From Arthrobacter sp. (GTDB lineage Bacteria > Actinomycetota > Actinomycetes > Actinomycetales > Micrococcaceae), in assembly GCA_029257465.1 (NCBI GenBank), contig JARIBG010000163.1, positions 1-37,377 on the forward strand: a stretch of DNA of 37,377 bases. Direction: 5' to 3'. Made by a program: the position numbers and the translations under genes. The notes under the pieces were generated by a model. The model worked only from the letters and a program-made list of their open reading frames with translations, did no database searches and was not told the origin of the DNA. Positions 25,063 through 27,926 of this stretch are shown piece by piece. Positions within the stretch are counted from its first letter, which is position 1; every line of letters begins with the position of its first letter.

Positions 25063-25101
25063 ATCCCCTCCGAAGCCCCACAGGAAGTGTGTCACCCCTC
25101 C

Positions 25102-26742
25102 ATGGCCCAGCACGAGCGCCCGCAGCCGATCCTCTATCGCAACGGATCGGTCTACAGTCCGGCTGATCCCTTCGCCACCGCCATGCTCGTCGACGGCGGC
25201 ACGGTGGCCTGGGTGGGGTCCGAACACGCCGCCGCGAATCTCGCCGGGCCCGGTGTGCTTTCCGTCGATCTGGACGGTGCACTGATCACACCCGGCTTCG
25301 TCGATGCCCACACGCACACCACCGAGACGGGCATTGCCCTCGGTTCCATCGATCTCACGGCCTGCGGCTCGTTGCGTGATCTCCTCGATGCGGTGGCGGC
25401 CGCCGCCGACGCAGGCGCCTCGATGATCCTCGGGTACGGCTGGGACGAGTCGACGTGGCCCGGGAAGCGTGTGCCCACAGCCGCCGAGCTCGATCGCGCA
25501 GGGAAAGGCGCCCTGGTCTACCTCGCACGAGCCGACATCCATTCGGCCGTGGTCTCCGGATCCCTGGCGGCAGGACTGGAGCTGGCGCAGATCGACGGGT
25601 GGAATGACGGGTTCGTCGTCCGTGCCGCGCATGAGGCAGCGCGAAAGGCCACGCGGCAGCTCTCCGCGGACCAGCGACGCAGCTACCAGCAGGCGGCCCT
25701 CACCCACGCCGCCTCCCGCGGCTATGTCGCCGTCACGGAGATGGCGGCCCCGCACATCGCCCCTCGCGAGGATCTCGAGACCCTGCTCACCATCGACGGC
25801 GCCGCCCACGATCTGCCGTTGCCCGAGGTGATTCCGTACTGGGCCCAGCTGACCTCGTCGGCGGGAGAGGTCAGGGAACTGATGCAGGGCTTCGGGGGCA
25901 GGCTGGCCGGTCTTGCCGGGGACCTCAACGTGGACGGTTCCATCGGGTCCCGTACGGCAGCGCTCCGCGAGGACTACAGCGACGCTCCGGGGAACCGGGG
26001 AACGCTCTACCTGGGCGAGGACGACGTCGCCGGTCACCTCCTCGCCGCGACGGCGGAGACCGTCCAGGCCGGCTTCCACGTCATCGGCGACGCCGGGCTC
26101 GACGTCGTCCTGAGCGGACTCGAGGCGACGGCGCGCGAGCTGGGCGTGGAGGAGGTCCGTCGCGCCCGTCATCGCCTGGAGCACGTGGAAATCGCCGACG
26201 ACGCCGCAATAGCGTCACTCGTGCACTTCGGGGTCGCCGTCAGTGGCCAACCGGTCTTCGATGCCCTCTGGGGTCAGGACAACGGGCTGTACGCCCAGCG
26301 CCTGGGTGCTCGGAAGACCGGCATGAACCGCTTCGGCTCACTTCTGGCGCAGGGCACCCTGGTGGCACTGGGTTCCGACAGCCCCGTCACGCCGCTCGAC
26401 CCCTGGGCATCCGTTCGTGCCTGCCTGCAGCACACCACGAGCGCCGAGAGGATCTCCGCGCGGGCCGCGTTCATCGCCCACACCCGCGCCGGCTGGAGAC
26501 TCTCCGGTCGTAGCCCGATGCTGGGCCAGCTGGCACCCGGTACACCTGCGTCGTTCGCCGTCTGGAAGGTCGACGAACTGATGGTGCAGGCCCCCGACAA
26601 CCGGGTGCAGTCCTGGAGCACGGACCCCCGGGCGGGTACTCCGCTCCTGCCGGCCCTCGACACGGAGAACGCCCCGGTATGCCTGGAGACCGTCCACGAG
26701 GGACACCGCCTCTTCGGCGTCGCCGGGTTCGCCGAGCGGTAG
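25102..26742 (+). CDS. Amidohydrolase, YtcJ-like
   Basis: This cytoplasmic metal-dependent hydrolase belongs to the amidohydrolase superfamily, YtcJ-like group. The metal-binding HTHTTE follows PGFVDA near residue 65. A carboxylated-lysine-type centre is not obvious. GDLNVDGSIGSRTAAL near 275, HVIGDAGL near 320, RHRLEHVEI near 355, and LGSDSPVTPLDPW near 425 fit the group. Length (546) is typical. The substrate is unknown. Two starts are possible: GTG 25087, overlapping an AGGAAG sequence, or ATG 25102 with AGGAAG 14 bases away. I prefer ATG because it begins closer to conserved sequence, with moderate certainty. It ends 449 bp before the next protein gene. Confidence 0.87.
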   Translation: MAQHERPQPILYRNGSVYSPADPFATAMLVDGGTVAWVGSEHAAANLAGPGVLSVDLDGALITPGFVDAHTHTTETGIALGSIDLTACGSLRDLLDAVAAAADAGASMILGYGWDESTWPGKRVPTAAELDRAGKGALVYLARADIHSAVVSGSLAAGLELAQIDGWNDGFVVRAAHEAARKATRQLSADQRRSYQQAALTHAASRGYVAVTEMAAPHIAPREDLETLLTIDGAAHDLPLPEVIPYWAQLTSSAGEVRELMQGFGGRLAGLAGDLNVDGSIGSRTAALREDYSDAPGNRGTLYLGEDDVAGHLLAATAETVQAGFHVIGDAGLDVVLSGLEATARELGVEEVRRARHRLEHVEIADDAAIASLVHFGVAVSGQPVFDALWGQDNGLYAQRLGARKTGMNRFGSLLAQGTLVALGSDSPVTPLDPWASVRACLQHTTSAERISARAAFIAHTRAGWRLSGRSPMLGQLAPGTPASFAVWKVDELMVQAPDNRVQSWSTDPRAGTPLLPALDTENAPVCLETVHEGHRLFGVAGFAER

Positions 26743-26831
26743 GATCCGGCAAGATCGGACCGACATCCCGAAGAGCGCTGCTACCCCTGGCTGACCTGCG
26801 TCGATGGACGTGTGCGCAGGTCAGAGGCGCG

Positions 26832-26859
26832 TTGACACGTACTCCACAGCACGTAAACT
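26832..26859 (+). promoter_or_regulatory. Near-consensus promoter TTGACA-16-TAAACT
   Basis: TTGACA (26832-26837), a 16-bp spacer, and TAAACT (26854-26859) form the best -35/-10 pair in the window. The predicted transcript start is about 26866. No credible gene begins downstream for 330 bp, so it most likely drives a non-coding RNA. Confidence 0.65.
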
Positions 26860-26865
26860 TTTGCC

Positions 26866-27076
26866 CTACGGGTTGGCAGACCCCCTGCCGGGGACAACCT
26901 GGGCGAACCCCCCGGGCGCAACGCATCGGCCTCTGCGGAGGGCGCATGGTGTTCGCTGCGTAGGGTCGTCACTCCAAGGGCAGGTCCACTCACCACTAGA
27001 CAACGGTGGCGGCATTCTCGTCGGCACCGGCACGAAGGTGAGGGGGCCTGCCTGAGTGCTGTCAGCAGGGGCGCAC
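26866..27076 (+). ncRNA. Candidate structured small RNA
   Basis: The 449-bp gap 26743-27191 has no credible protein gene. Downstream of a near-consensus promoter the sequence folds into two domains. Domain 1 is closed by CCCTACG (26864-26870) with CGTAGGG (26959-26965). Inside it are a local hairpin, GGTTG (26871-26875) with CAACC (26895-26899) holding GCAG/CTGC, and a second helix GCGAAC (26903-26908) with GTTCGC (26951-26956). Domain 2 is a long hairpin: 26979-26994 with 27037-27052 pairs at 15 of 16 positions, with an inner stem CGGTG (27004-27008) and CACCG (27025-27029). The closing stem begins at the -10-proximal edge, so the true 5' end may be at 26864-26866. The 3' end is uncertain, somewhere between 27053 and 27085. 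I cannot name the family; raiA-motif, Ms1/6S-like RNA or an undescribed class are open possibilities. The next gene has its own promoter, so this is unlikely to be only a leader. Confidence 0.6.
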
Positions 27077-27115
27077 CACCTTCGGAGGACCGGTCGGAAC
27101 CCATAGCGGGTCGCC

Positions 27116-27121
27116 TATACT
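27116..27121 (+). promoter_or_regulatory. -10 element (TATACT) for the mannosyltransferase gene
   Basis: TATACT lies 70 bases before GTG 27192; only a weak -35 candidate (TCGGAA, 27094-27099) is visible. The leader of about 64 bases contains a perfect 6-bp hairpin GCTCCG-CGTC-CGGAGC at 27131-27146 and the ribosome-binding site GGAAGAGG at 27175-27182. Confidence 0.5.
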
Positions 27122-27191
27122 TGCAGACTGGCTCCGCGTCCGGAGCACAGTTCCTGCGCTCAGCGCGCACCGACGGAAGAGGTCCACCCGC

Positions 27192-27926
27192 GTGCGAGTC
27201 GTCACGATCATCCCCACCTACAACGAGATCGAGTCGCTCCCGCGCACCCTCGCACGTCTACGAGCCGCAGTTCCCTCCTGCGACGTACTGATCGTCGACG
27301 ACAGCAGCCCCGACGGCACCGGCGAGCTCGCGGACGAGGCAGCAGCCGCCGATGACCAGGTCCACGTACTGCACCGTCCCGGGAAGGAAGGCCTCGGTGC
27401 CGCGTACATCGCCGGCTTCCGCTGGGCACTGTCGCGGGAGTACGACGTGCTCGTCGAGATGGATGCCGACGGCTCGCACAGGCCAGAACAGCTGCAGGGA
27501 CTGCTCGACGCCGTGGACGGGGCGGATCTGGTGATCGGCAGCCGCTGGGTCAAGGGTGGCAGCGTGGAGAACTGGCCGCTGCATCGCACACTGCTCTCGC
27601 GCGCCGGAAGTCTCTACTCGAGGATCATGCTCGGCCTACCGGTCCGGGATATCACCGCCGGCTTCCGCGTCTTCCGGCGCTCCACGCTCGAGGCACTGGA
27701 TCTGACCGCCGTCGAATCGGTCGGGTACGGCTTCCAGGTCGACATGACCTTCAGGGTGGCGCGACTGGGTCTGCGGATCGTGGAAGTACCGATCACATTC
27801 GTGGAGCGTGAACTCGGAGCCTCGAAGATGAGCGGGAACATCGTCATCGAGGCCATCATCAATGTGACGCGCTGGGGACTGGCCGCCCGATGGGCGAAGC
27901 TCTTTGGTAGTACGGCAGTGTCCTGA
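27192..27926 (+). CDS. ppm1: Polyprenol monophosphomannose synthase (GT2 family)
   Basis: This 244-residue glycosyltransferase family 2 enzyme is the DPM1/Ppm1 type, which transfers mannose from GDP-mannose to polyprenyl phosphate for lipomannan and protein mannosylation. The N-terminus [18 protein letters not shown], the nucleotide-binding [11 protein letters not shown], the catalytic metal site [34 protein letters not shown], and [18 protein letters not shown] are all typical. The end [19 protein letters not shown] is the membrane-facing C-terminus. It lacks the extra acyltransferase (Lnt) domain fused in some mycobacteria. It converges with rbpA, sharing the strong hairpin at 27955-27986. 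Its neighbour order with rbpA is conserved across actinobacteria. Confidence 0.9.

Follow-up and report, generated by a model that had tools for sequence, protein, structure and literature searches.

The large orphan RNAs raiA, OLE and ROOL are conserved, structured and free-standing, and they were found by comparison before any function was known. 6S RNA is usually present in a single copy and forms a long interrupted hairpin, and Y RNAs, which are bound by Ro (TROVE) proteins, consist of a long stem with a protein-binding internal loop. In actinobacteria, the role of Ms1 is known (PMC9130861 and PMC11077062, both available in part); according to the available text of the former, this RNA is reported for Streptomyces and Arthrobacter and its gene adjoins that of a HAD hydrolase. 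The accessible part of PMC11077062 reports scr3559 and scr0792 from polymerase RIP-seq of Streptomyces coelicolor.

The locus presented here lies between an amidohydrolase gene and ppm1 of Arthrobacter sp. (contig JARIBG010000163.1; "the window" designates the whole stretch of 37,377 nucleotides that was analysed). It very probably carries a free-standing functional RNA gene, as judged by comparison between genomes. At the gathering score of Rfam release 15, no family matched the window or the loci of 13 relatives. Below this threshold, positions 26600-27300 of the window, L193:3650-3950 and L070:2400-2850 gave only chance-level matches to any Rfam family, and the 6S family gave none up to E 10 in the first of these regions and up to E 5 in the two others. 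These results are consistent with an RNA that has not been catalogued. Searches of the open literature retrieved no description of it; supplementary tables were outside their scope and could hold an anonymous transcript entry. The accessible parts of five papers on Streptomyces RNAs (PMC3765725, PMC8388888, PMC8780764, PMC6742748 and PMC11678152) do not describe it either. The Streptomyces transcript scr1434 was considered as the same RNA and rejected: as its name indicates, it flanks SCO1434 (excerpts of PMC3765725) and it is probably a different RNA. The ppm1 gene of S. coelicolor is SCO1423, according to the available text of PMC5882110.

The predicted RNA and its locus

The alignment of 20 gaps between the amidohydrolase gene and ppm1 revealed four conserved blocks: (i) an inverted repeat, the dyad IR1, (ii) the promoter P1, (iii) the RNA itself and (iv) a -10 element that precedes ppm1, so that ppm1 does appear to have its own promoter, as had been proposed from the window sequence (Table 1). 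By blastn, the window DNA at 26832-27191 matches 20 of the 38 genomes of the genus, the long matches showing 68-74% identity, and the named proteins closest to ppm1 of the window are from Arthrobacter.

Table 1. Features of the RNA locus in the window and the evidence for each
Feature	Position	Strand	Evidence
Amidohydrolase gene (context, outside the RNA gene)	25087..26742	+	ORF; in many loci, those of Micrococcaceae and Streptomyces included, it adjoins the RNA
Dyad IR1, CTGACCTGC-N16-GCAGGTCAG, centre at about -58, 7 bp 5' of the -35; candidate activator site	26791..26824	.	Found in 94/139 loci
Promoter P1, TTGACA-16-TAAACT (TTGACA 26832-26837, TAAACT 26854-26859)	26832..26859	+	Sequence match, conservation
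Predicted structured RNA, about 190 nt	26866..27055	+	Putative start about 7 nt past the -10; putative end at the last conserved hairpin
5' hairpin H1 (26869-26874/26896-26901; inner 26882-26885/26890-26893)	26869..26901	+	96.6 and 97.5% of cells paired in alignment A3
Helix P2 (26902-26911/26962-26970) enclosing H3 (26918-26924/26946-26952, 26928-26931/26941-26945)	26902..26970	+	Alignment A3
Hairpin P4: outer stem 26979-26994/27037-27052, internal loop 26995-27003/27030-27036, inner stem from C27004-G27029	26979..27052	+	Covariation; match of model R1 at 26980-27052
-10 TATACT of the separate ppm1 promoter	27116..27121	+	Conserved among the 20 aligned gaps
ppm1, polyprenol-phosphate mannose synthase (context, 3' neighbour)	27192..27926	+	ORF; protein relatives

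The near-consensus promoter described in the original prediction is found in the window and is conserved in relatives. It is the sole promoter-like site between 22000 and 29500 on both strands; one site was found for 0.5 expected, and the match alone is thus weak evidence. The heavy base pairing noticed in the same region is partly upheld: the fold of 26866-27076 is better than that of shuffled sequences, although modestly (z = -2.19; 4/200 shuffles equally good), and two of the helices proposed with it are unsupported (see below). For 26866-27191, z is -2.46 and one of 100 shuffles was equally good. Since the promoter match and the folding energy are each too weak alone, the claim is carried by comparison.

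As anticipated, no credible protein gene covers the RNA on the + strand: of 20 Arthrobacter-like sequences, just 8, 3 and 4 keep its three frames open and, in the RNA region, 19 relatives out of 19 differ from the window by an indel whose length is not a multiple of three, which makes such a gene unlikely.

Conserved structure of the RNA

The 3' part of the RNA is a constant hairpin, P4, whose outer stem has 16 positions, 15 of them paired in the window, and whose inner stem is variable. This long hairpin was already recognized from the window alone and displays strong covariation. In A1, a set of 59 sequences that a motif pattern picked in Micrococcaceae, Streptomyces, Oerskovia and Micromonospora, 291 cells are double-changed compared to 111 after shuffling (0/500 shuffles reach this number), and the covariation score is 0.647 compared to 0.240 (0/500), versions of the structure slid along the alignment scoring at most 0.195. 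Double changes affect 18 of the 20 pairs, this count being equalled or exceeded in 38 of 500 shuffles. A score of 0.657 compared to 0.210 (0/500 shuffles) was obtained with 60 model-found loci (L148-L207) that were hand-picked from the matches for family coverage; 59 of them are distinct, since L180 and L204 are contig ends from a single genome that show an identical hairpin. It should be emphasized that A1 was chosen by pattern and that the A2 set and the matches of the R2 model (see below) were found by models of the same structure, so that the choice of sequences favours this structure.

In most relatives, the internal loop of P4 reads UAGAnAAC on its 5' side, opposite GGnnCGAA on its 3' side; in the window, these sides are UAGACAAC and GGCACGAA. 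Across the 59 sequences of A1, eight positions of the loop do not vary, partly because the motif pattern selected these sequences: variants carrying CAGA for UAGA (L002 and L004) or CGAGG for CGAAG (L006) were excluded from A1 and restored in A3, an alignment of 20 sequences. We take the AGUA opposite GAA of this loop to resemble the bulged-G (sarcin-ricin, loop E) motif; the G of AGUA varies. The apical pentaloop C-NNCCR-G is frequent outside Micrococcaceae. Among the 139 loci that passed the motif pattern or the model, its loose pattern is found in 44/45 Streptomyces-like, 37/60 other and 5/34 Micrococcaceae loci, and the strict form ANCCR, located in the folded loop, in 45/45, 27/60 and 4/34 of them, respectively.

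On A3, the whole structure H1-P2/H3-P4 has 95.7% of its cells paired, 21 double-changed pairs compared to 7.1 after shuffling (at most eight in slid versions) and a score of 0.251 compared to 0.177; none of 500 shuffles reaches any of these measures, so that comparative alignment does find covariation for the Arthrobacter structure. The helices P2 and H3 have changes on both sides in eight of their 20 pairs. The local CCCC/GGGG hairpin of the original prediction falls within the conserved hairpin at about 26869-26901. The fate of two other helices proposed there, a closing one (CCCTACG/CGTAGGG) and an internal one (GCGAAC/GTTCGC), is different: both can pair in the window. When they were tested jointly on 20 sequences, only 57.4% of the cells were paired, 94/500 shuffles reached their score and neither helix showed covariation; they were therefore rejected as conserved helices.

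Among other families, 44 loci (two of 46 were left out) show a partner-specific helix that closes the 5' domain, formed by the 5' end and the segment immediately preceding P4, with a mean of -28.6 compared to -24.9 kcal/mol for shuffled partners (sd 0.59; 0/300). No partner-specificity was detected in 28 Micrococcaceae loci (-12.2 compared to -12.3), the five of 33 without recognized promoter being excluded. As judged by this difference, the 5' domain is clade-specific in its details; P4 and the promoter region are common to the window and the other families.

Chance folding of GC-rich intergenic DNA would explain both the modest energy of the fold and the lack of conservation of the two helices mentioned above. 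It would account neither for the covariation nor for the recurrence across the phylum and the constant promoter geometry reported below, and we regard its probability as negligible.

Distribution in Actinomycetota

The covariance model R1, built from P4, matches 37 of the 38 genomes of the genus. In the class, it matches 148 of 296 sampled genomes and 65 of 115 genera, mostly in single copy, a count that is a lower bound due to stricter filters. In a first sample of the phylum, R1 matched 14 of 149 genomes. After retraining on 60 fetched loci, the model (R2) matched 54 of 396 phylum genomes belonging to 32 of 237 genera, with one match each, at least one of them being false. These matches include families outside the class. 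Fifteen of the 16 R2 loci that were inspected, all outside the class, carry the loop motif with CCAA replacing CGAA, and standard pairs occupy 269 of the 298 cells of the model's pairs in these 15 loci, which were fitted to the model. One R2 match, L225, is located inside an apparent ssb gene and looks false.

Eighty named ppm1 loci were fetched and 73 of them were searched, i.e. without L025-L028, L030 and L031 (duplicate Arthrobacter gaps) and without L033 (non-duplicate). The RNA was found in 42 of these 73 loci, whose carriers include Arthrobacter, Glutamicibacter, Paeniglutamicibacter, Zhihengliuella, Streptomyces, Oerskovia, Cellulomonas and Micromonospora, among others. The 31 loci without match in the approximately 3 kb searched on each side include Nesterenkonia, Micrococcus, Corynebacterium, Actinomyces and Agromyces; over the same distance from ppm1, three Arthrobacter-named loci (L036, L039 and L053) gave no match. 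Family f15, which is probably the mycobacterial family, was searched in 37 genomes of 31 genera, and none of them matched R1, an empty search being no proof of absence.

Among mobile replicons and viruses, plasmids gave no match to the window, phages gave no match to a Streptomyces copy, and viral contigs gave no exact match to the one motif pattern searched there. The Streptomyces copy matches one linear replicon of 2.8 Mb filed as a plasmid, whose gene table contains one feature in all, which makes missing annotation there uninformative.

Some copies differ in size or neighbours. In three smaller genomes of another family (L219, L220 and L221), the RNA is located behind a different reading frame, and the inner hairpin is longer in the first two. 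In two genomes, L202:2204-2277 and L203:3698-3770 lie in other gene contexts and consist of a TTGACC promoter followed almost immediately by P4 alone; they look like short second copies of the RNA.

Promoter and upstream elements

The dyad IR1, defined by at least 14 of 18 letters, a spacer N16-17 and a distance of 7-8 bp before the -35, was found in 94 of the 139 loci and in none of the 139 after one shuffle per sequence. It is present in 28/34 Micrococcaceae, 35/45 Streptomyces-like and 31/60 other loci. Thirty loci (17 Micrococcaceae and 13 other) have the exact 18/18 form, which is found in none of the 45 Streptomyces-like loci, where the dyad is degenerate. This exact form occurs only once, at the RNA, in the genome of the window (G000) and in five of seven further genomes, and is absent from the two remaining ones. 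Weaker matches occur about as often as those of a reversed control, except in G003 (12 compared to 5) and G337 (12 compared to 1).

A second upstream element, ACACGCCG, also seen as (GGCGTGTC-N5-7-)GACACGCCG, was detected in 27 of 56 loci, compared to a mean of 1.05 and a maximum of seven for shuffled words. It lies 85-118 bp 5' of the -35 in loci among L149-L207 (for example L185 and L187). The distance from ACACGCCG to the -35 in 23 loci is 85 bp (two loci), 95-97 bp (16), 104-107 bp (four) or 118 bp (one); this tally leaves out L190 (37 bp) and L180, L192 and L198, for which a wrong TTGACA was picked. These distances look like helical steps relative to the promoter, a pattern that was spotted post hoc. 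The dyad GGCGTGTC-N6-GACACGCC has one copy, at the RNA, in four of five genomes and none in the fifth. ACACGCCG was not found in the corresponding place of the window.

The constant spacing of the upstream elements suggests that they are bound by activators rather than being terminators of the preceding gene. Another putative sign of activation, promoter spacers that shun 17 bp, was dropped since 19-nt spacers are a common class in Streptomyces, according to the available part of PMC8780764.

Genomic context: separate gene or leader

The amidohydrolase gene and lnt/ppm1 flank the RNA in most fetched loci. In 43 of the 60 diverse loci, the same strand carries lnt or ppm1 with an aligned start within less than 600 nt 3' of the RNA, and in seven loci this start is farther away. 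In four loci of one family (L172, L173, L205 and L206), the RNA and lnt are on opposite strands and the RNA is convergent with the amidohydrolase gene. In one of these (L173), lnt and ppm1 are apparently fused into one reading frame. Neither lnt nor ppm1 is present on the fetched stretch of the last six loci: L180, L191 and L202 are at a contig end, and L193, L194 and L203 have neither gene within the 7.5 kb fetched. In L163, L194, L202 and L203, the first ORF predicted past P4 converges with the RNA at a distance of about 20-40 nt, such ORFs being predicted by length and third-position GC only.

The RNA could be the 5' leader of the lnt-ppm1 mRNA and act in cis like a riboswitch or an attenuator. 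This position fits the window, where ppm1 is the downstream gene, and the 43 loci mentioned above, and the lnt-ppm1 neighbourhood persists even outside the class (L192, L195 and L196). It fails in the four loci with an inverted RNA and in the four with a convergent ORF. Furthermore, TANNNT is found 4-9 nt before the in-frame start codon of lnt or ppm1, the pattern of leaderless transcripts, in 19 of the 43 loci compared to 3/43 for the two other frames together, and ppm1 carries its own -10 in the window. A cis-acting leader is thus unlikely as a general reading; in the clades of the 43 loci, a cis role is conceivable. As a side observation among L149-L207, the leaderless-type starts that follow P4 are those of lnt, and once of ppm1, 20-82 nt past the RNA. 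Lastly, a terminator-like hairpin is found directly 3' of P4 in L226, L228 and L231, outside the class.

From the inverted, convergent and lnt-less loci, the leaderless lnt/ppm1 starts and the terminator-like hairpins, we conclude that the RNA is a predicted separate transcription unit, often located before lnt-ppm1 for historical or regulatory reasons. Together with the class-wide comparison, its own promoter and the lack of any Rfam match, this agrees with the central proposal of the original prediction, a structured RNA independent of its neighbours.

A free-standing gene with a regulated-looking promoter could also encode a small RNA that regulates mRNAs by base pairing through a single-stranded seed, and C-rich stretches were seen by eye in the 5' domain. 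However, what is best conserved in the RNA is a long helix capped by a short loop, no unpaired seed common to the families was noticed by eye, and P4 seemingly stands alone in the short versions L202 and L203. We consider this function improbable.

An RNA that binds RNA polymerase, in the role of 6S or Ms1, had been envisaged in the original prediction because of the nearness of rbpA. This argument loses its ground elsewhere, since the RNA of other families adjoins lnt-ppm1 or the amidohydrolase gene or, in L193, L194 and L203, has neither lnt nor ppm1 within the 7.5 kb fetched, and since no match to 6S or any other Rfam family was obtained. The mostly single-copy and widespread occurrence, the primary-sigma-type promoter, the long interrupted hairpin and the precedent of Ms1 in actinobacteria (available parts of PMC9130861 and PMC11077062) would fit such a role. 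Against it, P4 has a small bubble of 9 and 7 nt with a conserved sequence, unlike a large mimic of the open complex; Ms1 sits at another locus (PMC9130861, available text); and the RNAs reported by the S. coelicolor RIP-seq are scr3559 and scr0792 (PMC11077062, accessible part). A role in polymerase binding therefore receives little credence here.

Proposed function and comparison with known RNAs

Overall, this stand-alone non-coding RNA probably represents a class that has not been described before and that is present, mostly in single copy, across much of Actinomycetota. The class would be defined by the P4 loop UAGAnAAC/GGnnC(G/C)AA and, within Actinomycetes, by a dedicated dyad for an activator, the exact form of this dyad being found nowhere else in the tested genomes; it would be a general housekeeping or regulatory ribonucleoprotein. 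The more detailed reading that we favour with somewhat less assurance, built on sequence comparison, combines a free-standing RNA gene, an activator-dependent promoter and a trans-acting RNA whose P4 hairpin docks a protein. The RNA would be made from its own sigma-A-type promoter, as conservation suggests, and a conserved activator that binds IR1, 7 bp before the -35, would switch the gene on. The transcript would comprise a clade-variable 5' domain followed by the constant P4, and would be the trans-acting RNA component of a ribonucleoprotein. A conserved protein may dock on the internal loop of P4, which is flanked by two helices and in which UAGAnAAC faces GGnnCGAA or GGnnCCAA; this docking could be tuned, or a second contact supplied, by the 5' domain. 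Docking of a protein on P4 is a tentative mechanism, plausible but falling slightly short of probable. P4, being at the 3' end, probably also assists transcription termination.

If this reading is true, it adds a new general RNA, absent from Rfam and often encoded beside lnt-ppm1, to the actinobacteria, the phylum of Streptomyces. Its wide recurrence and the lack of any catalogued family suggest that a widespread bacterial RNA has been overlooked. Furthermore, the conserved promoter with its genome-unique dyad predicts an equally conserved regulator, and defined baits now bring both this regulator and the putative protein partner of the RNA within reach. Novelty is claimed for the RNA family and not for the mechanism: the family may be categorically new, the mechanism possibly of a known kind.

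The long stem with an internal loop is reminiscent of Y RNAs. Ro/TROVE (PF05731) is encoded by 34 of the 296 class genomes, 29 of which also carry the RNA, and was not found in the genome of the window, which is 84% complete. Ro as a general partner, and with it a Y RNA identity, was rejected since 119 of the 148 RNA-carrying genomes, including that of the window, are without Ro.

The RNA is like 6S RNA (RF00013), a structured RNA usually in single copy with a long interrupted hairpin. It differs from it by a two-part predicted fold (5' domain and P4) and by a small, sequence-conserved 9/7-nt loop instead of a bubble like the open complex. Like Ms1 (scr3559, MTS2823), it is a free-standing RNA of actinobacteria at large that is weakly conserved in sequence (PMC9130861, available part). 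However, the synteny of Ms1 with a HAD-IB hydrolase gene is missing, the direct neighbours of the RNA being the amidohydrolase gene and ppm1, and the RNA was not found in the 37 genomes of the probable mycobacterial family. The Lnt motif of Chlorobi (RF01711), according to the available text of PMC2864571, is named for lnt, upstream of which the RNA is located in many actinobacteria. However, this motif belongs to a different phylum, the RNA has no Rfam match, and its orientation and promoters speak against a leader. Lastly, apart from the lack of an Rfam match, the RNA resembles raiA, OLE and ROOL in being a conserved, structured and free-standing RNA known by comparison.
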